From Zygnema cylindricum (lineage: Eukaryota; Streptophyta; Zygnematophyceae; Zygnematales; Zygnemataceae): a stretch of 64,000 nucleotides of DNA. Made by a program: the position numbers and the translations under genes. A model generated the notes under the pieces. The model had not been told where the DNA came from. It was given only the letters and a program-made list of their open reading frames with translations, and did no database searches. Below are positions 5,294 to 32,650 of the stretch, piece after piece. The stretch covers positions 104,691 to 168,690 of the forward strand of contig JBBHKE010000023.1 in NCBI GenBank assembly GCA_037447655.1, written 5' to 3'. How positions within the stretch are numbered: the stretch's first letter is position 1; every line of letters starts with the position of its first letter.

Positions 5294-8200
5294 ATGCTGG
5301 TGGATCTTGGAGCTTTTTCTGAAGAAGGATTTGATGCAAAAGCATGGGTGAATGGCACGTGTGCTGCCAGACCGACTGATGAGCCCGTGGATAAATATCT
5401 TTCAGATGTGGAGATCAAATTACAGCTGCTGGCAGGTAATCGCTGTCGATATTTTTCTGTCACTTTTTTTGAGAATGTAGGAAATTATAGGGCCATTTGA
5501 CAGTGGGACTCTAGTTTACTCTGTCACTCCTTGTTTCTCTTTTTCTAGCCAGTCTTGTGAATGGAGGTAAATGTAGGCCATTGACAATGGGACTGTTGTT
5601 TACTCTTCCTTTCAATCCTTGTTTCTCCTTTTTCTAGCCAGTATTCTGGAAAAAGTCAATGGCATTATATTACCGGGACACTCTCATATATAGATCTTTC
5701 TCCCTCCCTGGCTTCCTCGTCCCCTCGTCCTCTCCCTCTTTCACTGTTGCCCTTTTTTTTCCATGCACTCCTTGTCTCTTTTTTTCTCTCTCTCTCTCTG
5801 CCCCCCTTCTCCCTCCCTCCGTCCCTCCGTCCCTCCCTCTGTCCCTCTGTCCCTTCCTCCCTCCCTCTCTCCCTCTGTGTGCTCTAAGCAGCACCACCTT
5901 GAATTGATCTTTCAAGTCTCTGTCCTCACCTTTACAAAGGTTTTTTTTTATTATTTTACAGAGGATATTTCCGCGAGCTTGGAGGAACTGAGTTCCAATG
6001 CTCTCCTTCGTGTTCCTCGAGCTGTCCGAGAAACCAACCGAGTTCGCGATGACGCCTTTTCTTTGCGAAGCACCGTTGGAGGAATATTGCAGCGTCTTGA
6101 ATTGGTCAGTGTGAAAATGGTTTGTGGGAGATTGGAAAATTGGAAATATTGAGATTGATTGAGATTGGGTTTGATGGTAGGAGGTTGGGAGAAGTGCAAT
6201 TGAGATGATGTTGGGAGATTGAAGGCAATGTTGGGAGATTAAGATCGGGAGGTTGGAAGAATGGCGTTTAAGATATTAGGAATCACTGCTTTTCATTTGT
6301 GGTAGCGTAATTATCACGACTGCACATTTATGTCAATCTTTTTGAGAGGAACAGGTTTCAGCATATGCAAAACAGGAGAATTTGCTAAAGTTTGATAGTC
6401 CAAATTTTAATGTTGGTACACTTTTGTACTAAAGTATTATCACTATTTGTGAAGTATCAAGGTGAGCATTCATAAAATAAGCCAGGTTATCGCTAGTGAA
6501 AATCTTGAGATCATGGCTTTAGACATTGCCCATTGCTATTAGTGTTAGACATTTTCCAGGCACTAAAAAGTTTTTAACAACATTGTTAGCCATTTGTTTT
6601 TCATTTTTAAGGGAGCAAGCGAAAAGTAGTGGTCTCACCTTTTGATTGTGATTCCATGATTAAAAATCGGTACACTGTGATGAGAAAAACTACTTTAGAG
6701 TGCCCAAAGAATGTTTAATGTTCTACAATATTTATCTCACTCTTTTCAATCGATTCAACATCTTGGCAAATCCCGAGTTTTTATAATTCTTTAGTTTGTT
6801 AATGTTTTCACAGATGCTCCATTATTGGCCGCTTATCATACAAGCTTTTTTTAATAACGATGACTCAAGGGCAAAAGTATTGTCTAATAGATACAATCTA
6901 ACATGTGTCAAACATTAATATTTCCCCATTTCCTTTCTTGTAACTACAATAAGTTTTTGGTAAATGTACAGAAGCCGCAAGATGATGCCCCTTTATTCAT
7001 GCCATTAGGAAGGAATTTTCCCGATCTGTTTGATGATCTGTAGAGATTTTCTAGGGAGTTCTCGGGATTTTGATGAATCTCGGTACATTCTTTAGGGAAA
7101 TGTTCAGAACTTTGGAGGAATGTAGATATATTTCCAAGGAGTGTTCTTAGAGCTAAGAGCTACACCTGCCCATCACTATTAGTGTAAAGGAATTATTCAT
7201 TCCAAGTGAAATTAGTATCAATGATAATAATTTAGTGCAGAGTGATGTGACCAGTTTAATTCCTCTCTCTTTAAAAATGTTATTAACACTATTTTATGAT
7301 TTTTGGCCAAAATAAATTACGACCGATTTAGTTTTATTAACACATAGCGATGGACAGTGTAATTGTCGGATGGTGACAAAATAATTTATGACACACATTT
7401 TGTCTTTTTGTTGTTGGGTATTTGCAGGCGGAAGGGAGCTCGGCGCAGTCAGTTGCAGCTCTTGCCCGGGTAGACACCGTAAAAAAACATATGGAGGCCG
7501 CAAGATCGACTCTTCAGGTATGTTGGTCAACAAAAAAGATGAAACTTGCAAGTTTTTTTTTGAAGTGACATAGACTGTACGGAGCTCTATTGCAAAGGTA
7601 GAAGGAAGAGGATGCAGCTGAAGTAGAAGCTGAAGTAAATTCTACAAATTTTTATTTCAAAGGTTCCTCTGAATTCATACTGGGCAGACTGTGTTTGATT
7701 CCCATAGGCGAACTCTACAAAGTTTTATTAGGACATTAGTGTTTATGAGCCTCGGACTTAAAAGTATGAGCAATACTTATTTTTATAGGGCTGACGAAGA
7801 AACTACAACACACAACACTATTAGTGTAGTCAAAGTTATGCACAAACTACGCCTATTTTATGGTTTTGAAATTTGTTTTTTACAAGTCATGTGTCAGTGT
7901 GGAATGAGGAGGCAGCTGGTCTGGCTCAGTTAAGTGCTTCAGTTGAAGAGGTCTAATGTTATTTTTCTGATCAATAGTGGAAAGAGAAAAGGGGCTCCGA
8001 ATTAGTGTTTTCAATTCTAATGGCGATTCAGAGATATTTTTTCTGAGCATGAAGTTTTTTTGAGAAAAAAAGACTTTTTGGGAATGCAGGATGCAGCTGG
8101 TCTGGCTCAGTTAAGTGCTTCAGTCGAAGAAGTTTTTGCCAGTGGGGACCTTCCAAGGGTTGCAGAAACCCTAGCCTCAATGCGGCGATGTTTAGCCGTG

Positions 8201-9306
8201 GTTGGAGAGGTAAGTTAACCAGAAATGAATGCAAAGACTTCAATACAAACTTAATATAGAGTAAACAGTAGCTACAATGTCCTTCAGTGGTCGGAGAGGT
8301 AAGTGAACCAGAAAAGTTTTCAAAGACTTCAATACAAACTTAATATAGAGTCAACAGTAAGCTATAATGTTTAGCAGTGGTTGGAGAGATAAGTTAACCG
8401 GAGATTTACTCAAGGACTTGACTACAAAATGAACGTAGAGTCAACAGGAATTTTACCTGCACTTGCAAAGTGATCATAACTTATCAGAGTTTTCATGCAT
8501 ACTTTGTTAACCAAACAATTGTAGTATTAACCGTAGCTCTATTTAGGATTGCTAGTCAATATTAATTTAGTTAGTGGACAGTTTTTCTTACAAATGACAT
8601 CTCCTATTATGAATAGATCAAGAAAATTGAAATACTTATTTACATGGATTTGGATACCTATTAATGCAGTCAAGTATGGAACAATTATTATTTTTGTGTT
8701 TGTATTTTTTACATGGATATTGAGTACATTGGGGTCTATTAACGTTTCTAACAGAACTACTATCCTTTTAATACCTGGAATTAACATTTTAAGCACATGA
8801 AACACATTCCCAGTCTAACACATGGAACTTTAAAAATTGAGTCTTTCAGGTTCCTGAATTTGCCGATGTGAAGCGCCAGCTGGCGGCTCTTGAGGATCGG
8901 CTCGAACAAATGGTCCAACCAAGGCTCTCAGACGCTCTCAATCAACGGAAGGTACTTATAAATATACATATATATAATCTTTATAGTCCACACTATTTAT
9001 AACCACGTAGCCCTTGAGGATTGGTTCGAATTAATGGTCCAACCGAGGCTCTCGGATTCTCTCAATCAACGGAAGGTACTTATAATTGAGCTTTAAAGTT
9101 TACTTTAACCATGCAGCCCTTGAGGATTGGCTTAAACAAATGGTCCAACCGAGGCTCTCAAATGCTCTCAATCAACGGAAGGTACTTATAAATGTACAAA
9201 TATATATTTTGCTTTAAAATTCACATTTTTTATAACCATGTAGCGAACAGACGGTCCAACCAAGGCTCTCAGATACTCTCAATCAACCGAAGGTACTTAT
9301 AGATAT

Positions 9307-9345
<39 letters not shown>

Positions 9346-11421
9346 CACACACACACATGTATATTATATGTTCATTTATAGTAATTTACTTTGTGACCTT
9401 GTTTATTGGTCTAATCACCCTCAGTTGACATCACATTTTTTGAGTTTTATAAACAATTGCATCTCTATTTAACACCAGAATATCATATGAAGTTTAAATT
9501 TAAAAGATGTTCGAAACAACAATGTAATTCTAGATTCTGGTCCACTTTTTTGTCTAACAAAATCTGGACTTTTCCTAAAACATTGCAGTTTAAAAAGAAC
9601 CTCATGAACATTCAATCATAAGCCGTTTGTAAAAATGAAATACCATCCAATTTTTTTATTTATTTCATCCGATTTTTTTTTTTAATTTCATCCGATTTTT
9701 TTTTTTTTTTTTTTTGACAATCAGCTTTCACATTTTTTTTTCCGGTAAATGAACGATTCTTAGACTTTTTGTGACTTTTTTTGTACATTTTCAGGTGGAT
9801 TCCACTCAGGCTCTTCGAGATATCCTTATTGCCATTGGTCGATATGGGGCTTTAGAGCAACACTATACTCGAGTACGACTACGTCCTTTGAGAAGAATGT
9901 GGGAAGATTTTGATACTGCTGGAATGCCTTCTAAAGGGGCTGGTACAACTATCTGTAACTTTTTTTCCTCTTTCATTTCTCTTTTTTTTGTTCAACAATT
10001 TCATGCCCATTGTGTTCATTTCGGTGCTAATGGGTATTTTTTTGTGATAAATTCACATTAAAACGGATACAAACCTGTGTAAAGTATGAAGTATACACTG
10101 TCATTATAGGATTTTATACAATTATAGATCATACTGTTAGAAAACAACAAAGCTTTTCCGGCTTTGCCGACTTTTATTAATTTCTGTTCCTTTTTTTTTT
10201 TCGCAATTTTTCTTTTTTATATCTATCTTTTCCTAATTTTTCTTTCCCTTCTTTTCCACAGCCAATGGTTCCGCACAACCTGTTTCCGGAGTGAAAACGG
10301 TCAACGCCCGTTTCTCCGAATGGTTGCCGAAATTTTACGACGAGGTACTTTTGGTCGTGGAACAGGAAGTTCGATGGTGTGCACGAGCTTTTCCAGAAGA
10401 ACACTCCCTTCTTGTCCCTCACCTCCTTGTCGAAACTATGGCCGCCATCTCCTCCAGTTTCTCTGCAAGAATGGACGCAGCCGCACAGGAGGCGACTTCT
10501 GCAGCAGCCGCTGGGATATCCTCAGGTGCCTCTCTCTCTCTCTCTCTCTCCCTCTCCTCCCCCCTCTCCCGTTTCGCCTCCCTCTCTTCAAGTCAGTCTC
10601 CCGCTCTCTCGCCCGCTCGTCTCCCTCTCTTCAAGTCAGTCTCCCTCTCCCTCTCCCGTTTCATCTCCCTCTCTTCAAGTCAGTCTCCCTCTCCCTCTCC
10701 CTCTCCAACCCACTGTATTCAACTCCCTCGCCCTCTGCCTCTCTCTCTCCCTCCTGTTTTACCTATTCCGCTCCTGCTACCTATCCTTCTCTTTTTCAAC
10801 CTAACCTACCTAACCTTCCCTTCCCTCTCATCGCTCCCCTCGTCCCTGTCCCTCTCGCTCCCCCTCTCTTTTATTTAATCCCTGGTGCTCCTATGGCTCT
10901 TTCTACCATGAACTCTCTTCTGCAAGGGTCTGTCTCTCTCCCTCTCTCTCTCCATCTTTGTGCCTTTCCCTCTTTCTCCCATAGCCTCCCTTTGCAGGGT
11001 TCTCTCTTTCCTTTTCGCCCTCCGCCTGTCTTTTCCTTTTCTGGTCTTCCTGTTTCCTTTTTCCTTTTCTCTCGTCACTTCTCTCCTGTGGAAGTCTCTC
11101 TCAGCCTCTGCCTGTCTCGCTCCCTTTTTCTGTTCTGTCTTCTCTCTTCCCTCGTCCCTTCTGTCCTTTTCAGGTTCTTGCTTTCTTCCTTTCTCTCCTG
11201 CTGTCTCATTTTACCCTCTGGATGACTTTCTCTTTCTTTCTCTCCTTCTGCCTGTCCCTCTCCCTCCCCTGTTCCCTCTTCCTTTATTACGTCCTCTCCT
11301 CTCCTCCCTCTATTATGGGCTCAAAGTGGGCAAGTCTTGAAAGTAAGCATATTCATAAGTCGGTTTGTAAGGAGAAATATTGGATGACTAGACTTGGAAA
11401 ATGACATGTGACTCAGTACCG

Positions 11422-11489
<68 letters not shown>

Positions 11490-13154
11490 CCCCCCCCCCC
11501 TCTCTCTCCCCCCCTCTCTCTCGTTCAAGAGTTTATATGTCTGTCCATATTTTTTGCACAATGCAGGAAGCTTATGCCTCACAGCAATCACTTGTCCCTC
11601 TCGTCCCTCTTATCCCTCGTCCCGCTTATCTCTCTTTTTTGTCCAAACTGATTCAGAATTAAACACAAAAGAAAAACGTGTTTTTTTGTACAGATAAAAC
11701 CATGTTTTCCCCATACAAGTATAACCGTGTTTTCACTGTAACTAACGGGAAGCACTACCGGGATAACGTAGACAGATATATTATTAACATCCCATATAAA
11801 ATGAAAACCGTAACTTTTTCCCCATAAACCAACAGGGAAGTGATAATGGCACAACATCTATTTCCTCTCAGACCACTCGTCTCGGTACCCTAATTGCTCA
11901 AACCCATTTCCAAAATGTCGATTTCCCATATAAATAATTAATATCCCATCTAAATAAAAACCGTGTTTTCCCCATAATCAACAGGAAGTGATAATGGCAT
12001 AACGTCTACTACCTCTCCGACCACTCGTCTTGGTACCCTTATTACTCTCCATACCATGACCGGAGCTTTTGCCCGAAATATTCAACACCTATTGGCCGAG
12101 GCCGGGACCACAATTACTGAGCTGGCGCAAGTTTTAAGGTCGATTTTTGACCCATTTGAACCCCATAAACAACGATACGGGGAATTAGAAAAGGCACAAT
12201 TAGGGCAAGAAATCGGAAAATTGGACCTACGAGGGGCCGTTCAGAAGGGGTTTGGGGCTCGAGGACTCGAGCTTTCGGAAAACAGTGCGTCGGATGGAGG
12301 TGGGTGAGAGGGAGAGAGGGGAGGGGGGTGGGAGGGAGGAGGAGGTGGGAGGGAGGTGGAGGGAGGTGGGGAGGGAGGTGGAGGAAAGGGAGGAGGGAGG
12401 GAGGAGGGAGGGAAGAGGGGGAGGATGGGAGGAGAGGAGGGGAGGAGGAGGGGAGAGGGGATAGAGGGAGGAAGGAAGGAGGGAGGGAGGGAAGAGGGAG
12501 GGAGGAGGGAGGAGGGAGGAGGGAAGGGAGTGAGAGGGAGAGAGAGAAAGAAACTTGTGATTGAAAATGGGTTTCAACATGAGGTTTAGAGGGACCGAAG
12601 ATAAGTCTAATTTGTTCCCCGTTTGAATTGTTGTCACAACTGTCGTATAAAAGGATATTTGCCATTTGTGAATGTCAATATTTCCTCAAATTTGTCCCCC
12701 TGTTGGTTTTTGTATTTTGATAATGAAGGGTGAGAAAAAGTTTGTTCCACAATTGTCGTGAATTTTTCCCTTCCTTTCAACCTCAATAATAGTGAAACAG
12801 CTGAGTCCAAAAGTTTCACTGGATATTCACCATTGAGGAGCTAGAAATCTCTCTCTCTTCGCCCCCCCCCCCCGCACCCTCCCCTATCTCTCTCTCTCTA
12901 CCTCTTTCTTCCCCCTTTCTCTCTCGCCTCTTTCCCCTCTCCCTCTCTCCCTCTCTCTTACATCTTACCAATCTCTCTCTCTTTACCACGACTATTCTCT
13001 CTAAAACATTTTCTCACTTGTTTTCGTCGTAACTTTCGACTGTTTTCCAATCTTCAGTCCCTGAAGCTGTGGTTGCACATTGTCATCAATTCTTTCTCTC
13101 ATCCCTCTCCTCTCTCTCTCTCTACCTCTTCTCTCCTCCTCTCTCTCCTCTCTC

Positions 13155-13213
<59 letters not shown>

Positions 13214-13239
13214 CTCTCTCTCCTCTCTCTCTCTCTCTC

Positions 13240-13272
<33 letters not shown>

Positions 13273-14092
13273 ACCATCTGTACTCTCTCCTATCTTTTCT
13301 ATCTTCACTAATCTCTTTCTCTCTTTTTTTTTTTGTCCTTTTCCAGGCTTCCGTACCTGAAGCCATGATTTCCCTCGAAGCTGCGGTAGAGAGATGCCTC
13401 TCTTTCACGGGAGGTTCCGAAACCGAAGCTCTTTTAAAAACTCTCGACGAAGTTATGCTTCTCTACCTCTCCCAGCTTCTAGAAGCTTTACGGTCTCTTC
13501 GTCCTATCTGTGGACTAAACTCCAAAATGAAAACCGACAGCGTTTCCGAAACTGTCGGTGAGAGTGGTGGGAGTGGAGGGAAGAAATCGTCTAGTGAAGA
13601 GGGAGAGGTTTTGAGTGGGAATACAGGGAGTGGAGGGAGTGATACGGTTTTCGAGGAGGAGGAGTGGGCTTTAGTTCAAGGAGCTCTTCAACTATTGGCT
13701 GTTTCGGAAACCTTAGGAAGTCGTTCGGCAGTATTTGAGGCTTCTCTCCGGACTGCTTTAGGAAGACTCGGTAGTAAATTAGCGTTGGGGTTGGGGGTGT
13801 TGGGAGGAGAGGAGGGAGAGAAGGAACAAGGTTTAGGAAAGGAAGCCGTTTCAGGAGGGGGAGGAGGAGGAGGGGGAGTGATATCATTGGATTCTGCGTT
13901 GCTGAGATTGGCAGATGCTCCGGAAAAGGCTCAGCGATTGGCGAGGTGAGGGAGAGCGAGAGGGAGAGGGAGGGGTAGGGGGAGGTGGAGAGGGAAAGGG
14001 AGGGGGATGGGGAGGTCCATTTGGTGAAAATTTGTTCTCATAAACATGCTAGCATTCGTTCCATCATTTGTCCCACTTTCATCATGTTCTGA

Positions 14093-14179
<87 letters not shown>

Positions 14180-14959
14180 CCTCTCCCTCTCTCCCTCTCT
14201 CGCTCTCTCGCTCTCTCGCTCTATCTCCTCCCCCTTCACCCTCTCTCCCTTTCCTTTCTCTCTCCTCCCACTGTATGTGTTTCTTCTCTCTCTGTCTCCA
14301 GCTTATTGGAACAGGCTCGAGATCCCCGTTTCCATGCTCTCCCTCGAACTTCTCAAAGGGTTCAAGCTTTTCAAGAATCTGTAGGAGATCTCGTGTACGA
14401 TGTACTAATTTCCAAAGTAAGAAGAAGTTTATTCGGTTTGGCTCAAAAACCTATTTGGAAAGCCGAAGAGGAGGAGAACGCTTTCGATTTACCGAGCTTT
14501 AGTGCCTATCCGGAAAATTATATTACCGTAATTGGTGAGTATCTCTTACAATTACCTCAACAGTTAGAGCCTCTTGCTCTCGCAGAATCGGGAATAGGAG
14601 GAGGCGGAGGAGCTTTGGGAGAGGAGGGAGAGGGAGAGGAACAGGGATATTTTGCAACGGAATGGATGTTTAAAGTAGCCGAAGGAGCGACGGCTCTTTA
14701 CATAGATCAGCTCCGTACTATTCCTCAGTTATCGGAGAGAGGAGCTCAACAATTGGCCGTTGATATTGAGTATTTATGTAATGTTCTCGCGGCTTTATCT
14801 ATGGCGACTCCTCCGGTTCTCGCGACTTTTCAAGCTTGTTTGTCGGTTCCTAAGGATAGTTTAGCCGGTTTAATAGAACACGAGGGAGGACCGAAAGGAA
14901 ATTTGGATTCATCGACGGCTCGATTAGTCGCAAAAATGAGGAAAGTTTCATTAGATTAG
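5294..14959 (+). CDS. COG7: Conserved oligomeric Golgi complex subunit 7, frameshifted in this sequence
   Basis: COG7 belongs to lobe B of the COG tethering complex, which captures vesicles for retrograde transport within the Golgi. Ten exons join in phase: 5294-5435, 5962-6104, 7428-7517, 8090-8209, 8850-8951, 9795-9942, 10262-10525, 11985-12299, 13347-13945, 14302-14959 (TAG). The product would be about 859 aa, near the roughly 836 aa I recall for Arabidopsis COG7. Segments such as LLRVPRAVRETNRVRDDA, VFASGDLPRVAETLASMR, GAFARNIQHLLAEA, KLDLRGAVQKGFGARGLELS and AAVERCLSFTGGSE follow plant COG7 order. The first ATG, at 5294, gives the conserved start MLVDLGAFSEEGFDAK. Exon 8 has one extra A in the run at 12279-12282, shifting the conserved ETVRRME out of frame. 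Introns carry CT/GA tracts, a MITE and several splice-junction echoes. Confidence 0.95.
5491..5648 (+). repeat. Two-copy tandem duplication in COG7 intron 1
   Basis: The units start with GGCCATTTGACAGTGGGACT (5491) and GGCCATTGACAATGGGACTG (5576), period about 85. Each contains TTTTTCTAGCCAGT, an acceptor-like polypyrimidine-AG. The first also ends with a GAGGTAAAT donor-like word, so it resembles a decoy exon border. Confidence 0.85.
7163..7359. mobile_element. Mariner-like MITE in COG7 intron 2
   Basis: The ends CACCTGCCCATCACTATTAG and its imperfect inverse near 7340-7359 are flanked by TA (7161-7162 and 7360-7361). The element is 197 bp, with an internal TTTTTGGCC word shared with the copy at 28.95 kb. 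It is non-coding. Confidence 0.7.
7901..7952 (+). repeat. Splice-junction echo of COG7 exon 4 acceptor
   Basis: GCAGCTGGTCTGGCTCAGTT and the bases that follow copy the start of exon 4 (8090 onward) nearly exactly. The acceptor dinucleotide region has changed from ATGCAGGATG to ATGAGGAGG. It lies about 180 bases upstream of the true exon. Confidence 0.9.
8190..8452 (+). repeat. Triplicated donor junction of COG7 exon 4
   Basis: The true junction GGTTGGAGAG/GTAAGTTAACC (about 8200-8220) is followed by two diverged copies: GGTCGGAGAG/GTAAGTGAACC near 8290 and GGTTGGAGAG/ATAAGTTAACC near 8382. The unit is about 90 bp and includes about 20 bp of exon and 65 bp of intron. The second copy keeps a usable GTAAGT; the third has lost GT. 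Confidence 0.92.
8890..9297 (+). repeat. Quadruplicated donor junction of COG7 exon 5
   Basis: The exon 5 end TCTCAATCAACGGAAG/GTAC (8951/8952) recurs with roughly 60 bases of exon at about 9011-9080, 9117-9188 and 9245-9297. All three echoes keep the GGTACTTATA donor context. Between units lie related intron bases (TATAACCACGTAGC). Confidence 0.92.
9311..9358. repeat. (CA)n microsatellite in COG7 intron 5
   Basis: A CACA run of about 45 bases, broken once by a TG. Confidence 0.9.
10526..11520 (+). repeat. Pyrimidine-rich (CT/CCT) tract in COG7 intron 7
   Basis: The intron runs into CT repeats immediately after the donor and remains strongly pyrimidine-rich to about 11.3 kb. A pure CT tract flanked by C runs follows at 11421-11520. 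Within it, a CTCTTCAAGTCAGTCTCCC word repeats at about 45-bp spacing (10585-10690). Long open frames here encode only Ser/Leu/Pro and are compositional. Confidence 0.9.
11785..12055 (+). repeat. Echo of COG7 exon 8 acceptor junction
   Basis: The segment TTTTCCCCATAATCAACAG/GAAGTGATAATGG and the next 65 bases of exon (true junction 11984/11985) are preceded by a diverged copy around 11815-11905: CCCCATAAACCAACAG/GGAAGTGATAATGG. The upstream copy has an extra G and would meet a stop if used. Confidence 0.9.
12300..12550 (+). repeat. GA-rich tract at the 5' end of COG7 intron 8
   Basis: Almost pure GGGAGGA/GAGAGG composition starts at the donor. The same intron ends in a long CT tract (12842-13340), so the two intron ends are complementary. 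Confidence 0.9.
12842..13340 (+). repeat. CT-rich tract at the 3' end of COG7 intron 8
   Basis: Runs of CTCTCTC and CCTCT precede the exon 9 acceptor at 13346. Near 13052 the words CTTCAG/TCCCTGAAGCTGTGG look like a weak echo of the exon 9 start (CCGTACCTGAAGCCATG). Confidence 0.85.
13946..14275 (+). repeat. GA-rich then CT-rich ends of COG7 intron 9
   Basis: The intron begins GTGAGGGAGAGCGAGAGGGA (GA-rich to about 14012) and ends in about 90 bases of pure CT (from 14094) and CT-rich sequence to the acceptor at 14301. This repeats the arrangement of intron 8. Confidence 0.9.
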
Positions 14960-17250: not shown

Positions 17251-17253
17251 TAA

Positions 17254-18686: not shown

Positions 18687-19523
18687 ATGGCGGACCAGAG
18701 CAGTACGAACATCGGGCGGGACGCGCCCGGCGCTCCCGGCGAGTCGATGCGCGGCGTGACGGGGCGCGAGCCGATATTCGCGATGGACGCCGGGCAGGGC
18801 GCGGGCGACACGGAGGGCCTTTTCGCGCTGCCCGTGGACTCGGAGCACAAGGCGCGCAAAATAAAGCTGTTTAGTGTGGCGCAGCCGCACATGCGCGCGT
18901 TCCACCTCGCGTGGTTCTCGTTCTTCACCGCGTTCTGCTCGTCCTTCGCCGCGCCGCCCCTGGTGCCCATCATCCGCGAGAACATCAACCTCACCAAGAC
19001 CGACGTCGGCGCCGCGTCGATCACGTCAGTGGTCGGCGCGATTCTCTCGCGAATCGTCGTCGGATCGGTGTGCGATCTGGTCGGGCCCCGATACGGCGCC
19101 GCTTTTTTGTTAATGACGACGGTTCCATGCACGCTTTCGATGGCGGCCGTTTCGACGCCCGAGGGGTACATTATCGTACGGCTGTTCATCGGATTCGCGC
19201 TCGCGACATTTGTCACGTGCCAGTACTGGATGAGCTCTATGTTCAACGCCAAAATCGTGGGACTGGCCAACGGCGTGACGGCCGGATGGGGAAACTTGGG
19301 CGGCGGGTTCATCCAGCTGGTCATGCCGTACCTTCTGAAACTCATCGAGGAAGGCTTCGGCTTCAACGAGTACGCCGCGTGGCGTTTGTCGTTTTTCGTG
19401 CCAGGTGTCACGCAGATGGTCGTCGGATTCATGGTGCTGTCGCTCGGTCAGGATTGTCCGGATGGACAATATCTCGCGCTCAACCGATCGGGGGAACGCA
19501 AGATGGACAAATTCTCCTCGGTG

Positions 19524-19605
<82 letters not shown>

Positions 19606-21696
19606 GTATCTCTTTTCACATGGAAATCTCTGTCGGTAGTACGGACGCATTTGATGTCATTTGGGGCACAAACATCTCAATTCCGAGACAATACAATGTC
19701 CTTAAAACCCTAAAGAACATCTTCTCACTTCATTCATTTTCTTTCCTCCCTCTCTCTCCCTCTTTCTCTCTTCTTGCCTGTCCACGTTAGGTCATCGCAC
19801 GTCCATCATGATTCTGCCATATGGAAACTGTGACTTGTGTCGCCTGACTGTAAATTTGTAATCTTCCTGTTTTGCCACGTGGCAGGTTCTTGCCAATGCC
19901 ATGCTGAACTACCGTACATACATCATGATCTTGCTGTACGGATACTGCTTCGGAGTGGAACTCACAGTGGACAACGTCATCCACACCTATTTTGTCGACC
20001 GCTTCGGAATGGATCTTGAGACAGCTGGCCTCATCGCAGGTGAAGACCTAACCCTAACCCTAAACTCGTGTAAACCTAATTGTCCTCTTGAGTGGAAACT
20101 TATGGAAAAGAAGAATGGGTGCCCGCTTACGTTGGCTTTTACCCTTGTTTACCCTTGTTTTTTAGTTTTTAGGACTTTTAGGAAGACTCGGGTCTTCTTC
20201 CTTGCAGGGTGATTTAGGTTAATTACATTGAAGAAACTTACTTGATGTTGAGGGGAAATTGTTTCAGTTTTAGTCAAAATCGTAACATAAATGTACGCAT
20301 TATAGATTGTACGAATTGTACCACTTGCCTTTAAAACGAGGGTAAATCTCAGGTTAATTGCTTCCTCCTCTGAATATTTGATGGAAGCACACTAAATTTG
20401 AGTTGTGGTTTTGCAGCTTCTTTCGGGATGGCCAACATCATTTCGCGACCGTCCGGAGGCATTCTTTCGGACGTGTTTGCTCGACGCTTTGGGATGAGAG
20501 GCCGCCTCTTCTGGTATTGGCTCGTCCAGGTGAGCCTCTCTCTAAAGGTGTCAATTATATTAAAAGCCTAGAGGTTTCGATATTTGTTGTTTCAGTTCTT
20601 AGAACTTCCTCTTCTGGTATTGTTGTGTCCAGGCGAGCCTCTCTCTAAAGGGTTCAAATACTCTTTCTAAAAGTTCAATCACTCTTTCTAAAAGTTCAAT
20701 CACTCTTTCTTAAAGTTCAATCACTCTTTCTTAAAGTTCAATTACTCTTTCTAAAAGTTCAATTACTCTTTCTAAAAGTTCAATTACTCTTTCTAAAAGT
20801 TCAATTACTCTTTCTAAAAGTTCAATTACTCTTTCTAAAAGTTCAATTACTCTTTCTAAAAGTTCAATTACTCTTTCTAAAAGTTCAATTACTCTTTCTA
20901 AAAGCTCAACTACTCTTTCTGAAAGTTCAATTACTCTTTCTAAAAATTCAATTGCTCTTTCTAAAAGTTCAATTACTCTTTCTAAAAGTTCAATTACTCT
21001 TTCTAAAAGTTCTATTACTCTTTCTAAAATTCAATTACTCTTTCTAAAAATTCAATTGCTCTTTCTAAAAGTTCAATTACTCTTTCTAAAAGTTCAATTA
21101 CTCTTTCTAAAAGTTCTATTACTCTTTCTAAAAGTTCTATTACTCATTTGAAAGGACCCATTACTCTTTCTAAATTCTTCAATTATTCTTTCGATATGAT
21201 TCAATTTATCTTTCTAAAGTTTAAGATATTTCAGATTTGATATTTCAGATTTTTCATACCTCCGTGTTTCTTACATCTTTGCTGTATGTGGAACGCTGGC
21301 AGGCTGGGTTTTAGTGGGCTCTTTTCTTCGTTTCTTCTTTTCTGTTCTTATTTTTCCAGCGTGCTTTGTGGATCACAGATTGTAGATGGCAATGAGCTAG
21401 GAAATTAACTGACCTTTTCTTTTTTTTTCCTTTTGTTTTGCAATTTTTGCTGCGGCGACAGTCGTTGGGTGGCCTATTCTGTCTTGCTCTCGGCTACATG
21501 AACACGCTCGCGTCCTCCATCATCGTGTTGATCGTCTTCTCCTACTTCTGCCAAGCTGCATGCGGAGCCGCCTTCGGAGTTGTGCCCTTTGTGTCGCGAC
21601 GCTCGCTGGGAATCGTGTCCGGACTCACCGGAGCCGGAGGAAATCTCGGGGCTGGTATCACTCAGGTCAATCTTGGAGCGGGTCTCACTCAGGTCA

Positions 21697-21763
<67 letters not shown>

Positions 21764-23050
21764 TCATTTTGATACTCGTCTTTGATTGTATTTTCCTTTC
21801 CCAAGCACTCATTTTCTCTCTTGCACTTACAAGCGAATCTTGTTTGGATGTGTGTTGGTATTTCTATCTTCCTTCGTCCCTCTGTTTCCTGTCAAATGCT
21901 TTCCTCTCTTCTCCCTTCCCAACGCTGATTTTTCTCTGGTTTTTCCTGATTTTATCGTGTTTTCTTAGTTTTCTCTGTGGTTTTACTAGGTTTCCCCTGA
22001 TTTTTCTACGATCTTTATCTGAATTTTCTCTGCTTTTGTGCTTGTGTATTTCCAGGCGGCGTTCTTCACCTACGCGTCGTTTCCGACGGAGGATGGGTTC
22101 AAGTACATGGGCATCCTGATCATGGCCATCACTCTTCTGGTGAACTTCATCTATTTCCCGCAGTGGGGCAGCATCCACTTCCCGCCCTCCAAGGCGCCCT
22201 CGGCCACCGAGGAGGCCTACTACGCCGCCGAATACACCGAAAAGGAACGCGACGAAAACATGCACGCGGCGTCCATGAAGGTACGCCGTACGGAGCATGG
22301 CTCGCATGTACGGAGCATGGCTCGCATGTACGGAGCATGGCTCGCATGTACGGAACGACAGTTTAAGCGCATGGAACTACTCGCTTCATGGAACGACACT
22401 TTAATTTCGCACTAATTTTAAATGAACGGAATCTATCGCACCGAACTTAACCAAACGAAATTTTATGCGCACGGAAATTAGCCGTACAATTTGATTTACA
22501 TTTATTATTGATTTGATTTACATCGTACCTTCATGCACGCGGCGTCCATGAAGATATGATGTACGGAGCATGGTTCGCATGTACGGAACGAGTATAAGCA
22601 CATGAATCTTGCTTCATGGAACGACACTTCAATTGAACCGAACGATTTTTTTTGCCCACGGAACTTAACCGTACAACTTTTTTTGCGCATCTCTCACTTC
22701 ACTGAACAAATTTTTTCAGAGCTTCATTTTCGTACTTTTACCGAACTGAGGTTTCGTGCGCACAGAACTCACTGTACTGAAAACGGCGATTTTTGCTGAC
22801 TTCACTTCAAATCAAACTGTAACTGCAGCATGGTAACTAAGGAACTATCGAAACTGTAACTGAATATTGTAAGCAGCGTAGCAAGTATTGTTATCTTTAA
22901 CCAAGTCTTGCAGTTTGCTGATTGTTTCCATGTTGTGCGGTATTCCGTTTGCAGTTTGCGGAGAATTCGAAGGGAGAGAGAGGCCGCGCTGGAGTCCTCG
23001 CTATGGCAGAGGGTGACGTGGAGGCCAGCAAGAAAGTCTCGGATTTCTAA
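18687..23050 (+). CDS. NRT2: High-affinity nitrate/nitrite transporter, NRT2 (NNP) family
   Basis: This is a plasma-membrane proton-coupled nitrate importer of the major facilitator superfamily. Six exons join in phase: 18687-19520, 19886-20039, 20417-20529, 21462-21665, 22056-22280, 22955-23050 (TAA), giving 541 aa, normal for NRT2. Motifs seen: LPVDSEHKA and [17 protein letters not shown] before and in the first helix; the MFS loop [14 protein letters not shown]; the nitrate signature [10 protein letters not shown] (about residue 198); the second one, [12 protein letters not shown] (about residue 424); [19 protein letters not shown]; and a charged cytosolic tail ending KKVSDF. The first ATG after the GA leader gives the longest frame. 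Exon 1 is much richer in G/C than COG7 exons. Introns hold CT microsatellites, a 21-bp array and three junction echoes. Confidence 0.96.
19524..19604 (+). repeat. (CT)n microsatellite at the 5' end of NRT2 intron 1
   Basis: About 80 bases of perfect CT start four bases after the exon 1 donor (GTGAGT). Confidence 0.95.
20507..20650 (+). repeat. Echo of NRT2 exon 3 donor junction
   Basis: The true end CCTCTTCTGGTATTGGCTCG...CCAG/GTGAGCCTCTCTCTAAAGG (junction 20529/20530) recurs about 97 bases downstream (20604-20650) as CCTCTTCTGGTATTG...CCAG/GCGAGCCTCTCTCTAAAGG. The donor GT has become GC. Confidence 0.92.
20650..21180 (+). repeat. 21-bp tandem array in NRT2 intron 3
   Basis: About 24 copies of TCAATTACTCTTTCTAAAAGT with a few substitutions and small deletions. 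The array starts in the echo of the exon 3 junction, whose CTCTCTAAAGGGTTCAAATAC resembles the repeat unit and may be its founder. Confidence 0.95.
21651..21695 (+). repeat. Short echo of NRT2 exon 4 donor junction
   Basis: GGTATCACTCAG/GTCAATCTTGGAGC is followed directly by GGTCTCACTCAG/GTCACAC. The unit is about 30 bp, and both copies keep CAG/GTC. Confidence 0.85.
21700..21762 (+). repeat. (CT)n microsatellite in NRT2 intron 4
   Basis: About 60 bases of perfect CT shortly after the duplicated donor. Confidence 0.95.
22258..22690 (+). repeat. Echo of NRT2 exon 5 donor junction plus 20-bp triplication
   Basis: CATGCACGCGGCGTCCATGAAG at the true exon end (22280) recurs at about 22532-22553. 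It is followed by the same intron words (TACGGAGCATGG, CTTCATGGAACGACACTT, AACTTAACCGTAC) for roughly 150 bases. In the echo the donor GT is AT. The true intron start also has three copies of TACGGAGCATGGCTCGCATG. Confidence 0.92.
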
Positions 23051-24179
23051 ACTGTTACTTTGAAAAGAACTAACTTGAATTTAGTTAAATAACAAAGAAA
23101 AAGTATCCAGGAGGTATGACTAAGACAAGAAGTGTGACTAAGACAAAAAGTTTAAAGATTTCGGGTATATAACTAAAAAATAGTATCTTTGAAGAGGTTG
23201 TATAACCTTTAAAAGTATGTAAATGTTGCATGGATTGGCTGGATATTAGTTGGACAATTTAGATGTTTAGGATTTTTGAAATTCAGGAGGTTGGTGAATG
23301 GCTTAAAATTAGGGTTAAGAATCAGGAATAAAGGCAGGTGTTAAGATGTTGCCCTAGGGTTTAGTTTAATTAATGACTTTGATTTTGGGTTTAAGCCTCT
23401 GGTAGAAATCTATGACTCATATCAAGTTTATCCTTTTTAATACAAAAGAGATATTTATGTAAGAAATACAAATATTTTGTTTGGAAACCCTAAAATATTT
23501 TTGTCATTTTTCTCATGTTTTTCTGTTTTCCTTACTCTCTCAATCCCTCTTGCTCTCTTTCTCCCTCTTCCTCCCTCTATCCCTCTAGCTCTCCTCTTGC
23601 CACTCTCTCTCTCTCTCTCTCCCTCCCTCTTTTTTTCCCTGATATGGTTGTTTATGTTGGAAAACAATACATTGAGATGACCTAATGTGCTGTTTTCCTT
23701 TCCTTCTCCCTCCACTCTACCCTAACTTTTAACTCTTGTTGTTCTTTATTCAAACCATGTATGATAAATATATGATTATCTAATGGTAATCGTCATATTA
23801 TACATACATGTATGTAGTATGTACAATAATTTACCATCATAAATATTATTGTGAAAAGAGTGTGAATTCATTTCCTTCATATATGACTCTTGGAAAACCT
23901 TTCCCTCTCCCTTTCCCCACTCACTGTCACCTCCCCTTCTTCTTATGTCCACCACTCATGATTCTCTCCTCTTCCTATCTTCGGTTCTCCTATTCTATAT
24001 CCTCTTCCTCTCCATCTCCCTCTCTTCACCACTCCCCCTCAATTTCATGTATTTCCACAGTAAACATTGTGAGAGGCCCCCTCCTTACCTCCCCCTCCCC
24101 CGCTTTAACTTTCCCTTCCCTTCCCTTCCTCCTCTCCCCCTCTCTCCAAAGAGTCTACACGAGGCAGAGCATAAAATGA
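23051..24179. other. NRT2 3' flank, intergenic
   Basis: This is AT-rich sequence with two pyrimidine-rich patches (23520-23640, 23900-24150). Open frames in the patches are compositional. No gene was recognised. Confidence 0.45.
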
Positions 24180-25110: not shown

Positions 25111-25114
25111 TTTT

Positions 25115-26290: not shown

Positions 26291-26294
26291 GTGT

Positions 26295-26783: not shown

Positions 26784-26956
26784 ATGAACCTACGGATCTA
26801 CATTCTGTCTTTTCCTACTCCCTAACTACGCGACAGCAGCTACTCCTCGCTACCATGAACCTACGGATCTACATTCTGTCTTTTCCTACTCCCTAACTAC
26901 GCGACAGCAGCTACTCGTCGCTACCATGAACCTACGGATCTACATTCTGTCTTTTC
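26784..26956 (+). repeat. 71-bp tandem repeat abutting the retrotransposon
   Basis: Units starting ATGAACCTACGGATCTACAT at 26784, 26855 and 26926 have an exact 71-base period. The first two are almost identical. The third is cut off at about 26956, where the open retrotransposon frame begins. Confidence 0.93.
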
Positions 26957-28672
26957 TGGTCCCCACGTCCTATTCCTCCTCCTTTCACCCCCCCTCTTGG
27001 TTTTCAGACGACTCCTCCTTCCGAAGGCATTCGTGTGTTGGGTTGCCCGCTTGGTTCCGATCCATACGTCACGACATTCCTTGATTCCGCTCTTCATACA
27101 GATTTATCCCACGTGGACGACCTTCCTCACCTTTCTGATCCCCAGGTTGCCTTTGCTCTCTTTACTCGTTGTTTCCCTTACCGGCCCTCTTACCTTACTC
27201 GGACTTCCCCTCTCACCCCATCCTTTTTGTCCTCACTTTATACATTCGATGATCGCCTTATGGATGTCCTCCACACTTTGTTGGGCCGTGGAGCTTTTGA
27301 TCCCGAGTCTGGGCCTGCAGCACGCATCCAAGCCTCTCTTCCTGTCTCGGCTGGCGGTTTGGGTTTACTCTCGACGGCCCGTGTTGCTCCTGCCGCCTAT
27401 TTGGGGAGTTGGTGCCTTGTTGCTTCCACTATTGTCTGTCGTTTTCTGGCCGGGGACACTCCTATTCTTGCGGCCGTGGTTCCCCGTGTTTCGGATGGTG
27501 AGCTCGCCTTCCAGCGGTCCCTTTTGGATGCATCACGTTCTCTGAATCCGGCTGCTATCGAGGACATGCCGATTTTTTCCACGCTCGTTACGACATCAGT
27601 TGCACGTGTTCAAGAATCCATTACTGATCGGGTTGTTGCCGCTATTAAATCTGAGCTTCTTCAGGCGCTTACTTCCAATTCTTCGCGTGCACGTTTTCTA
27701 TCTTGTGGCGGATCTGGCTCTGGAGCTTGGCTATTGGCCGTCCCTGTCTTATCCACTCTTCGTTTCACACCGGCTCAGTTCACCACGGCCCTTAGATTCC
27801 GGTTTGGCCTCCCTCACCCACCTTTGCTTGGCTCACTTGTTTCCTCCTGCGGCCACGTTCTCGAGCCCGATGGGGTCCATTTACTTCGTTGCTCCCATGG
27901 GGGCGAGTTGATTCATGCGCACGACACGATTCGAGACACCATCTCTACTATCGCTGCTGAGGGGGGATTTTTTGTTCGTCGCGAGGTCTCTCACATTATT
28001 CCTTCGCGTCGGATCGACCTCGTATTACTTGATGGTGCGCGTCGTACATTTGGTGACATTGTTTTGACGAACCCTACCTCAACTACAGTCGTCAACCAAG
28101 CGGCTCGGCATATGGGAGTGGCTGCCCGTGACGCAGCTAAAAGGAAAGAGCGTGATTATGCCCATCGCGACGCGATGGATGGCTTCATTCCGATGGCCGT
28201 CGAGATATTTGGTTGCTTGGGTGTGGCTTTGGACGAGTTATTCTGTACTTGTGGTCGTCGTTCGTTTGAGAGGCGAGGACCTGGGAGCCCTCTTGTTTCA
28301 GTCCTTACTTCCTTTTATCATCAACGTTTTTCCGTGGCCCTACAACGGGTGTTGGCTTCTATATTACTTCGATCGGCTATCTCGGTTATGGATCGTCGCC
28401 GTGTTCCGGACCTCCCTCAACGTGCTCCCCCGGGTTGGGGGGACTTACGGGGTTGCTTTTAGATAGATAATTGAGTTGGTGTTAGAGTTGTGGTTTTGGT
28501 TTTGTGTGTTGCTGGGCTTTTCATTTTGGGTTTGGGTGCTTTTATTTGCCTTGTTGTTGTTCCCGTTGCTCTCTTTAGTTTTATTGCCCTGTTAGTTTTT
28601 ATGTGTTGGCCATACCACCCTTTTTGTACCCCCGGACTTAGATGGTTTACCATCGTGCTTTTTAATTTATCC
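26954..28672 (+). mobile_element. 5'-truncated non-LTR retrotransposon with 3' UTR and hairpin tail
   Basis: The element begins inside the 3' part of its reverse transcriptase and runs through the C-terminal endonuclease region, the stop codon at 28460-28462 and a roughly 200-base 3' UTR. It ends at AGATGGTTTACCATCGTGCT and TTTTAATTTAT, without a long poly(A). Two more antisense tails lie at 25.27-26.04 kb and two sense tails at 55.0 and 60.65 kb. No clear target duplication was found. Confidence 0.88.
26957..28462 (+). CDS. C-terminal part of retrotransposon polyprotein (RT thumb, zinc knuckle, restriction-like endonuclease)
   Basis: The open frame of about 500 codons has no in-frame start, as expected of a truncated copy. 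GIRVLGCPLGSD near its start looks like the end of a LINE reverse transcriptase. Around residues 295-325 the C/H pattern SSCGHV...LRCSHGGELIHAHD suggests a zinc-binding knuckle. RREVSHIIPSRRIDLVLLDG followed by FGDIVLTNP has the spaced acidic residues of a PD-(D/E)XK restriction-like endonuclease. This arrangement is known from Utopia, R2, NeSL and Hero type elements; Utopia is my best guess from memory. The frame is free of stops and frameshifts over 1.5 kb, so the insertion is fairly recent. Confidence 0.8.
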   Translation, partial: WSPRPIPPPFTPPLGFQTTPPSEGIRVLGCPLGSDPYVTTFLDSALHTDLSHVDDLPHLSDPQVAFALFTRCFPYRPSYLTRTSPLTPSFLSSLYTFDDRLMDVLHTLLGRGAFDPESGPAARIQASLPVSAGGLGLLSTARVAPAAYLGSWCLVASTIVCRFLAGDTPILAAVVPRVSDGELAFQRSLLDASRSLNPAAIEDMPIFSTLVTTSVARVQESITDRVVAAIKSELLQALTSNSSRARFLSCGGSGSGAWLLAVPVLSTLRFTPAQFTTALRFRFGLPHPPLLGSLVSSCGHVLEPDGVHLLRCSHGGELIHAHDTIRDTISTIAAEGGFFVRREVSHIIPSRRIDLVLLDGARRTFGDIVLTNPTSTTVVNQAARHMGVAARDAAKRKERDYAHRDAMDGFIPMAVEIFGCLGVALDELFCTCGRRSFERRGPGSPLVSVLTSFYHQRFSVALQRVLASILLRSAISVMDRRRVPDLPQRAPPGWGDLRGCF

Positions 28673-28950: not shown

Positions 28951-29152
28951 TACTGCCCATCGTTTTTAGCATTTAAGGATTTATTACTTGTTAATTTAAA
29001 ATTAAAATTAGTTATCATCTTTAGTGCAAGGAAACGTCGCAGATTGTAGCCCACATCCTTAAATAGAGTTGTTGACACTCTTTTGTGATTTTTGGCCTAA
29101 GGAAGTCGGAACCGAACTAGTGCTATTAACTCTAATAACGGTGGGCAGTGTA
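28951..29152. mobile_element. Mariner-like MITE
   Basis: The left end TACTGCCCATCGTTTTTAG and the right end CTAATAACGGTGGGCAGTGTA are inverted, with TA at both tips. The interior shares TTGTGATTTTTGGCC and ACCGAACTAGTGCTATTAA with the COG7 intron 2 copy. Confidence 0.7.
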
Positions 29153-29455
29153 TTTGAATTATCAGTCATTTGTTTGTTAACTTTCTATGAACCTAAAATT
29201 GAACCATAGGCACGATTTGAAAAAAACGAGAAAGAGAACAAAATCACTTGGAAAATTATATACCACCTTTTGAAATGATTAAGGGCTTCACATAATTTCC
29301 ACATAAACCAACAAAAGTCAATCATGACATACATCGATACGAAAATGCATAAAGACATTCACCACGAAAATTTGTATTGTAGACCAACAATTTTTTTTAC
29401 TTGATTAAAAGCCAATTGGTGAATACATCGTTAACTGGAAACAGTTACAGGCCCT

Positions 29456-32374
29456 CTACTTTGTCTTCAAGTACTCGTTGAGTACGTTTAAGGCCTCGGT
29501 CTCTTCACCATAATCCTGAAAAACCACAAAAAAACAATCGACAAAGAGAATGAATATTCCCATTTTTGAACTAATGCTAGCACTTACAAACAAATCACAT
29601 CAACTTCAAACACTCACAGTTTGTTTGAAACAATTATGTTTTCAACTACACCATGTTTCCACAATTAAAGTTAAATTTTTGTCCACTGTTAAATAAACTT
29701 TTCTCAGTGCACACACATGTTCAATTTTTATCTTAAGAACGTCAATAGGAAAATAACAATCTTTACGTTTCCATCGCAACCCTCAATTGTGCACAAAAAC
29801 AATAAGTTTAAAGCCGAAAAAAAACATTAACTCTCATATCAATAACACAATGGCGTTTCCACATCCTTGTTCTTTAATTGTCCAGACAAATCATCGTGTT
29901 CAAAATAGTTTCTAACACCACCCTGTGGACATTATTTTATATCCACATGTATCTTTACATCCACTATCAAATTTCAGAGGAGTGCTTCACATTTGAATCT
30001 ACGTTTCAGTGACAATTCATTTCTCCACTTTCAAATACATAGCTTAATCCACAAGTTAAAATTATCTCTTACAATGCAAAACATGTGCATAAAAAAAAAA
30101 TATTACAATAGGATAGAGACTATAATAGGATACAACCAAAAAGATACTAAAATAGGACAACTAATACAGATACTGAAAAAATCAAAAACATAAAGAAGAT
30201 AATTCGACAATTTCATAAAGCAGCCAACAAACTGACACTCTAAAACCTTAAAAAAAGTTAACTTAAAAAAAAAAAAAAAACATGTTTTCACGTTCTTCCC
30301 ATTTACATTCATATTTACATAGGAAATGAAAAAAGGTCTCACCTTCACCACCACACAGGAGCATCCGACCACCTTGCGAGCTGTGCCTTCGGAATCAATC
30401 TTGCAAAGCTGTTTATAAAGTAAACAAATAAGGAAACAAATCAGATATTGAAAATTTTCCAGAGTTTCTTACGATTTGGTAGGTTTTTCACGGATTTGTA
30501 AGTTGTGTAGGGTTTTGCAGGCTTAACTGGGTTTTTTTAACTTCAACACAGGAGAACACTCAGCTATGAAGATTGATATCTGGTCAAATGAAAATTCTCT
30601 CCACCGTTCCCTCGCCCTTGCCACCCCACTCTAACTTTCCACCTCCTCTTCCTCCCTCTCCTCTCCCTCCCCCTCTTCTTTTTCCTCTCTGTTCTCCCTC
30701 TGTTCTCTCCCTCTCTGTTTTTTCCTCTCTGTTCTCTCCCTCTCCATCCTTTCCCTCCCCTTTCTCTACCTCTTTATTTGACCCAAAATTCACTCATATC
30801 CCAAGCATTCCCCCCAAAACAAAATCTCACTTCCCTCTCCCTTCCCCCCACTCACCCCGGCCCACTCTCCCAACTTCTTCGCAGCCGGCACGTGGATGAG
30901 GTTGACGTTGTGTTCATCACATAACGCCTCCACCAGCTTAGTGTAGTCGGGCTGGTTGCAGTCTTGAGCCAAAACACAGAGCTGGGCGGAGTGCTTCTCG
31001 ATGGCCTTGGCCGCCTCGTGGAGGCCTCGGGCCAAACCGTCGTGAGCCAGAGCCTTCTTCAGGACCTGTAGACAACACCGAAATAGTGTGGATTTTGTTA
31101 GGAAGTGGATTTGTTGAGAAGTGGAAATTCCAAGAAGAGATTTTTCAAAAAAAGGAACGAAAATAGAGTGGATATATGAAACCCATAGCTGTCGTGAGCC
31201 AGAGCCTTCTTCAGAACCCGGCCACAGTGTCACATAACCGGAAATAGTGTAGAATCGGCAAGGAGTGGGGTGGAAAAAACGGGGGGGGGGCAATGACAGT
31301 GTCAAAAACAGAATTGATGTGGTGTACAAATCGGAAATATTGTGGATTCGGTTAGGAGTGGACTTGATAAGAAGTAAATTTTGGAAAAAAGGGAAATAGA
31401 GTGGAATTGTGAAGGGAAGATTTCTTGTGAGCGAGAGCATTCTTCAGGACCTGTCAGCAGTGTCACAAAACCGAAAATAGTGCGGATTTGGTAATGAGTG
31501 GCTTGGAAAAATCGAAAATAGAGTGGACATGTGAAGGGCATAACCATCATGAGGGAAAGCCTTCTTTAGAACCTGTTGATGGTGTCACGAAACCGGAAAT
31601 ACTTTGGATTTGGTAAGAAGTTTGTTGGAAAAAAGCAAGGGAGCGGAGGCGGAGCAGGCAGTGTGTCAGAAAAACAGAATCAGTGCGGTGCCACAATAAG
31701 AAATTAGTGGTGTAAAGAAAACGGAAGAAGTGCAGTGGCGGTTTGAATCAAAAAATAGTGTGGATTTGCTAAGATTTCTTTAAGGGAAAAATCGGTAACA
31801 GGGTAGTCTTGTGAAGGGCATAGCTGTATGAAGAAGCGAGATTCTTCTTCAGGACCTGTTTGGAAAGTCACAAAAGCAAAAAAACCGTGGATTTGGTGAG
31901 GAAGTGAATTGGAAAAAACCGGACCTGTTGGAGAGGCGGTCAGTGTTAAAAGACCGGAACTAGTGTGGTGTCACAACAAAAAAAGGTGTGTCAAAGAGTC
32001 AGAAATAAAATGGTGACACAAGACCGAAAGTAGTGTGGGTTTGTCAGGAGATGGTTTGAATAAAAACGGAAACAGTGATGCGTTGTCACAAATTCAGAAT
32101 GTGATTGCAAAACACAGGAATTAGTGTGGATTTTGAATTCGAAAAAACTGGAGATAGTGTGGATTTGTGAGAGGCGAATCCGTCATACGCGAGAGCCTTT
32201 TTGACGACCTGGTAGAGGGAGAGGTAATGGTCTCAGTAATGTGGATTCGCTGAGCAGGAGAGGGAGGAACAAAAGCGGACCTGTTGGAGGGCGGTCATGG
32301 TGTCCATGGGCTCCCCAGTGACGGGCTCCGGGGCCGCAGGGGCCGCAGGAGGGGCATCAGCGACAGGCTCATCT
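29456..32374 (-). CDS. RPS12: Small-subunit ribosomal protein eS12, 5' end not located
   Basis: eS12 is a cytosolic 40S protein with an L7Ae/L30e-type fold, in the small-subunit beak. On the minus strand, exons are 32281-32374, 30856-31065, 30343-30408 and 29456-29515 (TAG), joining in phase to 142 aa. Recognised segments: [90 protein letters not shown] and [10 protein letters not shown], as in plant eS12. Exon 32281-32374 begins inside a codon (needs two bases from upstream) and holds an acidic/Ala-Pro lead, so a short first coding exon is missing. Complement 33424-33450 is flanked by AG and GT and would fit the phase, but this is weak. Intron 2 has at least five acceptor echoes. Confidence 0.93.
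30572..30855 (-). repeat. GA-rich tract (sense) after the eS12 donor at 30856
   Basis: On the coding (minus) strand the intron starts GTGAGTGGGGGGAAGGGAGA and stays GA-rich for about 250 bases. This matches the GA-rich 5' ends of COG7 introns 8 and 9. Confidence 0.8.
31030..32215 (-). repeat. Array of echoes of the eS12 exon 30856-31065 acceptor junction
   Basis: The true junction reads, on the plus strand, GCCAGAGCCTTCTTCAGGAC/CTGTAG (31065/31066). Decayed copies with adjoining intron words (CCGAAATAGTGTGGATTTGG) occur near 31190-31260, 31425-31500, 31548-31620, 31835-31900 and 32170-32215. Several keep the AG on the coding strand. Exon pieces are 15-30 bases and intron pieces 50-80 bases. 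Confidence 0.9.
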
Positions 32375-32650
32375 CTGCGGGGAAAAACCAGAAATAGTGT
32401 GGATTAAACACAGGTTCTATCGCGTGGTGGGTTAGACACTAGTTCATCTCTGCAGGAAAATATGGACCAGCAAAAGTGTGGAGTACTTCAGCAGCCTGTG
32501 CAAAAGAAGGGAAAGGGAAGGTCTGAAAATGTATGAATGAGGGAAAGGGGAGGGGAAAGAGGAGGGAGGAAAGCACTGTTACATGATCAGCTGTCAGTGA
32601 GAGGGCTGTCTCTGGGGGAAACCAAGATCTAGTGTGGATTTTTCGGAGGA
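32366..32650 (-). repeat. Echoes of the eS12 exon 32281-32374 acceptor junction
   Basis: GGCTCATCT/CTGCGGGGAAAAACCAG (plus strand, true junction 32374/32375) is followed upstream in gene sense by AGTTCATCTCTGCAGGAAAA at about 32438 and GGCTGTCTCTGGGGGAAACCAAG at about 32600. Each is trailed by an AGTGTGGA word. Confidence 0.7.

Follow-up and report, generated by a model that had tools for sequence, protein, structure and literature searches.

Do local duplications favour the borders between exons and introns, or does the sequence around splice sites recur where ordinary duplications happen to cover it? The question is raised by a window of 64,000 nucleotides of Zygnema cylindricum DNA (C17:104691-168690, in an assembly of 352.8 Mb and 2689 contigs), in which segments holding the exon and intron sequence that flanks a splice site are repeated nearby, as what are here called echoes, in three neighbouring genes. 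A sequence-only reading of this DNA had proposed that either a duplication process favours splice junctions or copies elsewhere are removed, an interpretation that is partly supported by the analysis given below. The explanation that we favour, with a probability of roughly three in four, is that the echoes stem from ordinary local tandem duplications, which were tolerated where they crossed splice junctions, with a local excess still to be explained.

Genes and exon models

Four genes of the window enter the analysis.

5294-14958, plus strand: COG7; Pfam match (exons 3-8, E 4.8e-83), reading frames and GT-AG borders
18687-23051, plus strand: NRT2; MFS match (E 1.3e-24) and a weak match to nitrite extrusion protein
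29456-32374, minus strand: coding exons of eS12; Pfam (E 1.3e-28) and PDB (E 2e-65) matches
about 35.7-53 kb, plus strand: SCC2/NIPBL-like gene; home-made gene finder and family match (E 5.8e-12, first 1187 residues of the model)

The exon borders of COG7, NRT2 and eS12 were placed from the reading frame and GT-AG. Those of the SCC2-like gene come from the gene finder, whose model is possibly wrong in part, and only its 29 exons of at least 50 bp were used. The COG7 frame breaks between exons 8 and 9; either donor 8 or acceptor 9 is therefore possibly misplaced, and both were masked in the junction-centred alignment. The PDB entries nearest to eS12 are probably land-plant ribosomes. Elsewhere the window holds a purine-rich satellite of 2.3 kb with an 11-bp unit (57065-59371) and an intergenic open frame of 510 residues (26930-28462) that possibly belongs to a mobile element.

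Duplications across splice junctions

Local alignment centred on the junctions, with 12 bases required on either side, was applied to 83 of the 91 junctions in the four genes, the other eight being masked as simple sequence. Local duplications lie across eight of these 83 (COG7 3/12, NRT2 2/8, eS12 3/7, SCC2-like 0/56), with scores of 38-106 as compared with a 99.9th percentile of about 35 among 528 base-shuffled controls. The SCC2-like gene (35700-53000) is intron-rich, yet differs from its neighbours in that no duplication was detected at any of its tested junctions. Most echoes are tandem, head-to-tail copies with offsets between about 27 and 270 bp, and head-to-tail adjacency was found at NRT2 donor 4 as well as at COG7 donors 4 and 5. 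Junction-centred alignment and self-alignment together recovered the echoes that had been proposed for COG7 (donors 4 and 5, acceptor 8), for NRT2 (donors 3 and 5) and for two eS12 acceptors, one of the latter weakly.

The COG7 features, with one intron-only duplication for comparison, are as follows.

5469-5648, plus strand: tandem duplication within intron 1, intron only (comparison; self-alignment)
7901-7952, plus strand: exon-4 acceptor echo, 43 exon and about 9 intron bases, 92% identity to 8081-8133
8081-8133, plus strand: working exon-4 acceptor segment, source of that echo (exon 8090-8209; Pfam COG7)
8188-8276, plus strand: working copy of the exon-4 donor unit (donor 8210), in an 89-bp tandem
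8277-8450, plus strand: two tandem exon-4 donor echoes; GTAAGT intact in echo 1, AT in echo 2
8890-9003, plus strand: working copy of the exon-5 donor unit (donor 8952; self-alignment)
9010-9309, plus strand: three tandem exon-5 donor echoes, GTACTTATA at 9076, 9182 and 9293
11773-11899, plus strand: exon-8 acceptor echo, 83% identity to 11927-12047
13043-13067, plus strand: possible exon-9 acceptor echo, weak (score 30, shuffle p 0.006)

Donor 4 thus lies in a tandem of three 89-bp units and donor 5 in a series of four units spaced about 106-124 bp, each with GTACTTATA, while acceptor 8 has a single copy at an offset of 154. The acceptor-4 copy, at an offset of 180, was recovered by self-alignment as had been proposed, but with only about 9 recognisable intron bases rather than the 20-150 ascribed to it, and it was missed where 12 bases per side were required; head-to-tail adjacency is doubtful here. 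The acceptor-9 echo, put forward as a "perhaps", is weak. Within the acceptor-4 echo, positions 7909-7950 form an open in-frame segment of 42 nt between AG and GT, which translates as EAAGLAQLSASVEE, close to the initial residues of exon 4.

When COG7 7421-10280 was searched against the genome, no other match within the exon-4 or exon-5 echoes was found among the matches listed. At least 40 other genomic matches exist, those listed all in query 2228-2768; this part of COG7 (9648-10188, from intron 5 through exon 6 into intron 6) probably holds dispersed repeats. The segment NRT2 22056-22700 matches only itself and a second NRT2 copy on contig C494. Since no dispersed copies were found among the matches listed, the COG7 exon-4/5 segments and NRT2 22056-22700 are not regarded as derived from introners.

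In NRT2 the following features were found.

20608-20660, plus strand: exon-3 donor echo, GC instead of GT, offset about 103
20639-21224, plus strand: 21-bp satellite self-contained in intron 3, intron only (comparison)
21669-21696, plus strand: exon-4 donor echo, 27-bp tandem (TRF), shuffle p 0.002
22532-22634, plus strand: exon-5 donor echo, second tandem unit, AT instead of GT, offset about 273

The 27-bp tandem bears out the echo proposed at donor 4; its use would add 9 residues and keep the frame. The second NRT2 copy (C494:22300-28226), either a paralogue or an uncollapsed allele, has exons about 98-100% identical to those of the window, exon 6 being partly covered. Its donor-3 and donor-5 echoes are present and keep the GT that is replaced in the window by GC and AT, respectively, the donor-4 echo is absent (one 27-bp unit as against two), a 20-bp unit occurs once as against three times, and intron 5 has an additional segment that partly matches a unit of the window copy. 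Both the number of units and the state of the decoys must thus have changed after the two NRT2 copies separated. More distant relatives lie on C566 (77%) and C125 (78%).

The eS12 features are the following.

31105-31983, minus strand: acceptor unit of exon 30856-31065 in diverged tandem copies (self-alignment)
31887-31942, minus strand: echo of donor 32280, 79% over 58 bp, score 52
32173-32216, minus strand: further copy of the start of exon 30856-31065 beside the upstream donor, 77% over 44 bp
32594-32640, minus strand: weak echo of the acceptor of exon 32281-32374, score 38, shuffle p 0.002

The donor echo, which lies in the same intron as its source, was missing from the list of the sequence-only reading. 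With several diverged acceptor-unit copies and one donor copy between 31065 and 32281, and AG/GT at both borders, this 1.2-kb intron speaks for the view that the echoes arose as a side effect when introns were gained or lengthened through tandem duplication of AG/GT-containing segments (the Rogers model), for which there is a precedent in potato (PMC4974935). The introns of COG7 and NRT2, however, are in large part free of duplication, and we regard this origin as highly improbable for the echoes at large.

Background of local duplication and the excess at junctions

Local duplication is widespread across the genome. A similar detector finds it in 26 of 27 sampled stretches of 10 kb (21 contig starts and six inner stretches from two contigs), where it spans 1415 of 18490 tested positions (7.7%), and BLAST-based clustering yields 93 arrays in 243 kb unmasked. 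A position-based control had shown no excess at junctions, with eight junctions duplicated and about 8.1 expected from random intron positions in the same genes (6-7 observed and 8.1-9.0 expected in a second comparison). This control is not independent, because the junction arrays themselves hold many of the duplicated intron positions, and it was replaced by event-level array tests, which are less favourable to ordinary duplication.

At the event level, 6 of 9 arrays span a junction, as compared with 2.9 expected from placement, or 2.2 if the 21-bp satellite is entered with its true unit (P 0.004-0.023; P 0.017-0.071 when detectability is allowed for), and a hand list gives 9 of 15 where 2.8-3.6 are expected. 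From the genomic background about 1.9-2.15 arrays would be predicted over all 91 junctions (P 0.01-0.02); over the 35 in COG7, NRT2 and eS12 the prediction falls to 0.7-0.8 (P 0.0002 or less). Arrays at junctions are thus clearly in excess in these three genes, about threefold when all four are counted, in genes chosen post hoc.

Six arrays stand where 2.2-2.9 would be placed by chance and where the background gives 0.7-0.8 over the three affected genes and about 2 over the four together. With donors and acceptors both hit, these figures argue for local duplication with a preference for splice junctions, arising for example from breaks where co-transcriptional structures form at the edges of exons. 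Should the local excess prove to be genome-wide, a mutational process linked to splice junctions would be indicated, and with it a way for introns to lengthen. COG7, NRT2 and eS12 were, however, selected because of the pattern, and none of the 56 junctions of the SCC2-like gene is affected. Part of the excess is also detection bias, since the working exon is frozen and copies that contain exon sequence stay recognisable for longer. A survey for further genes gave 119 candidate coding stretches in 270 kb, by eye mainly mobile-element or doubtful frames, so that it supplied no independent gene sample.

The other half of the earlier proposal, that copies elsewhere are removed, fits the exons: in the four genes no array wholly inside an exon was detected, and at tested exon positions over 80 bp away from any junction no duplication was found. 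It is likely that duplications arising within exons are purged.

A genome-wide proxy for junction preference

As a genome-wide proxy, identical 8-mer pairs 83-113 bp apart were collapsed to loci, chance was subtracted and the remainder was expressed per 1000 occurrences of the word. The excess for splice-like words was 0.78 (AGGTGAGT), 1.29 (AGGTAAGT), 1.36 (TTTGCAGG) and 1.57 (TTTTCAGG), and for arbitrary words 1.29 (GTCTGATG) and 2.21 (TGTCATGG); per occurrence, and on a rough normalisation, splice-like words are duplicated no more than the two arbitrary ones. At the wider spacing N{110,140} the excess for AGGTAAGT was 0.34 loci per 1000.

Raw counts, forward as against backward control, are more mixed. 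For AGGTAAGT they are 31 and 101 (13 and 96 at N{110,140}), for AGGTGAGT 18 and 56, for TTTGCAGG 53 and 4 with a control that contains CpG, and for TTTTCAGG 73 and 34 (78 and 32 at N{110,140}, as raw matches neither collapsed nor normalised); the arbitrary words give 19 and 4 (GTCTGATG) and 51 and 19 (TGTCATGG). The acceptor words TTTGCAGG and TTTTCAGG thus exceed their backward controls in raw counts, a further point for a junction-preferring process. Because the backward controls, countable as matches only, are uneven (0.22 to 7.25 per 1000), single-word counts were used for normalisation, and these are rough, resting on 7-23 occurrences in 334 kb. With matches taken per 1000, TTTTCAGG and its backward control are alike (1.94 and 1.65).

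The words are only partly splice sites, and the two kinds of junction differ in what the proxy can say. The donor test has little power because AGGTAAGT is barely above what composition predicts (13 vs 12.0). The acceptor word TTTGCAGG is 2.4 times commoner than predicted (19 vs 7.8), so perhaps half of its occurrences would be acceptors, and a several-fold genome-wide acceptor preference should therefore have shown.

Splice-junction preference is accordingly unproven. The earlier claim that duplication favours junctions does not stand as an established result, given genes chosen post hoc, the detection bias, the SCC2-like gene and a proxy in which splice-like words behave much as GTCTGATG and TGTCATGG do once normalised. 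We consider a junction-preferring process unlikely, and take the same sceptical view of its extended form, in which duplication in this lineage would be biased to exon-intron borders in a subset of genes, introns would grow by copying their own junctions and the decoys would be the fossil record of that growth.

Divergence and the state of the decoy sites

Ordinary duplication makes a simple prediction about the fate of the copies. A local tandem duplication would happen to cover an exon-intron border, and the spliceosome would then stay with the outermost site, the first donor or the last acceptor; with that site still in use, the mRNA would be unchanged and the extra exon fragment would become intron, in which the copies would diverge much like unconstrained DNA.

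Over eight pairs of real unit and copy at five junctions, leaving out COG7 acceptor 4 and eS12 (NRT2 donor 4 is not in the alignment), differences were counted at 39 of 330 sites in the exon part (0.118) and at 105 of 474 in the intron part (0.22), a ratio of 0.53. The copies therefore look mostly neutral, since a ratio near 1:2 is expected where only the working exon is constrained and the intron drifts in source and copy alike. When COG7 donor copies are compared with each other the two parts are nearer equal (29/182 exon, 23/115 intron). Single pairs are uneven: COG7 donor-4 echo 1 is reversed (exon part 6/22, intron part 8/67), and the acceptor-4 copy is a clear exception to the pattern, with its exon part different at 3 of 44 sites and the adjoining intron part at 75 of 136. 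In eS12 real unit and copy differ by 0.32-0.38 in the exon and 0.44-0.52 in the intron, and copies differ among themselves by 0.27-0.39 in the exon and 0.30-0.62 in the intron, where any pair that involves copy c1 is based on 21 intron sites.

As had been noted, the copies supply decoy splice sites in various states of repair. GTAAGT is intact in COG7 donor-4 echo 1 and GTACTTATA in all three donor-5 echoes; a single base has inactivated others, giving AT in COG7 donor-4 echo 2 and at NRT2 donor 5 and GC at NRT2 donor 3, and one eS12 copy has lost its AG. Selection might keep the echoes because they modulate splicing, whether as decoy or alternative sites or as mini-exons that preserve the frame. 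By eye the splice dinucleotides are intact in 7 of 10 COG7 and NRT2 echoes and in 6 of 7 eS12 echoes, and both the 42-nt acceptor-4 echo of COG7 and the 9 further residues at NRT2 donor 4 would keep the frame. The COG7 and NRT2 figure, however, matches the 78% expected from divergence under neutrality, and the eS12 figure, which is above its expectation, comes from echoes found partly by AG/GT. Each of the four intact COG7 decoy donors, if used, shifts the frame and meets a stop, and the C494 copy of NRT2 does without the 27-bp echo and has two decoys in a different state. Selection for the echoes is in our view very unlikely.

Ordinary tandem duplication tolerated at junctions is supported by the tandem layout, the high background, the largely neutral divergence, the more nearly equal parts among COG7 donor copies, the intactness of COG7 and NRT2 decoys at about the level expected, the differences in unit number and decoy state in the C494 copy, the lack of any wholly exonic array in the four genes and the lack of a normalised excess in the proxy. 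Points against it are the event-level excess, the uneven divergence pairs, the raw excess of acceptor words and the intactness of the eS12 decoys. Even if they are only ordinary, the arrays form a natural record: over the summed pairs, divergence between copy and source is about half as great in exon sequence as in intron sequence, so that splice-site decay and intron growth can be traced within one genome.

Comparison with known systems

The statement that no known system does this was too strong. In the potato RdRp gene a tandem duplication across an intron-exon boundary has been published; the copy created a new intron and added exon sequence, and the gene has a further tandem duplication, of 83 bp, inside its first intron (PMC4974935). 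As in potato, the segments duplicated here contain exon and intron sequence on the two sides of a splice site, at acceptors an intron end with the start of the next exon, and lie next to their source; unlike that of potato, the copies here appear to be plain intron, are often repeated and involve donors as well as acceptors.

The Rogers model, as presented in the same source, derives intron gain from tandem duplication of exon sequence that contains AGGT (PMC4974935), and intron-gain cases in Drosophila have been described in a paper that cites frequent natural duplications including partial exons (PMC2891723). Tandem duplication yields additional splice signals in that model and here alike, but the Rogers unit is exonic whereas the present unit spans an existing junction. 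Among the publications listed in the literature search, none on a duplication process that prefers junctions was found.

Introner elements, which are dispersed transposons that generate introns, differ in that the echo segments searched are without similar copies at many unrelated places, among the genomic matches listed. Intronic minisatellites consist of head-to-tail units and vary in copy number, and the echoes share with them the head-to-tail units and a unit number that differs between the two NRT2 copies. What sets the echoes apart from such minisatellites is that the array starts in coding sequence, so that one of its units is held by selection on the protein.
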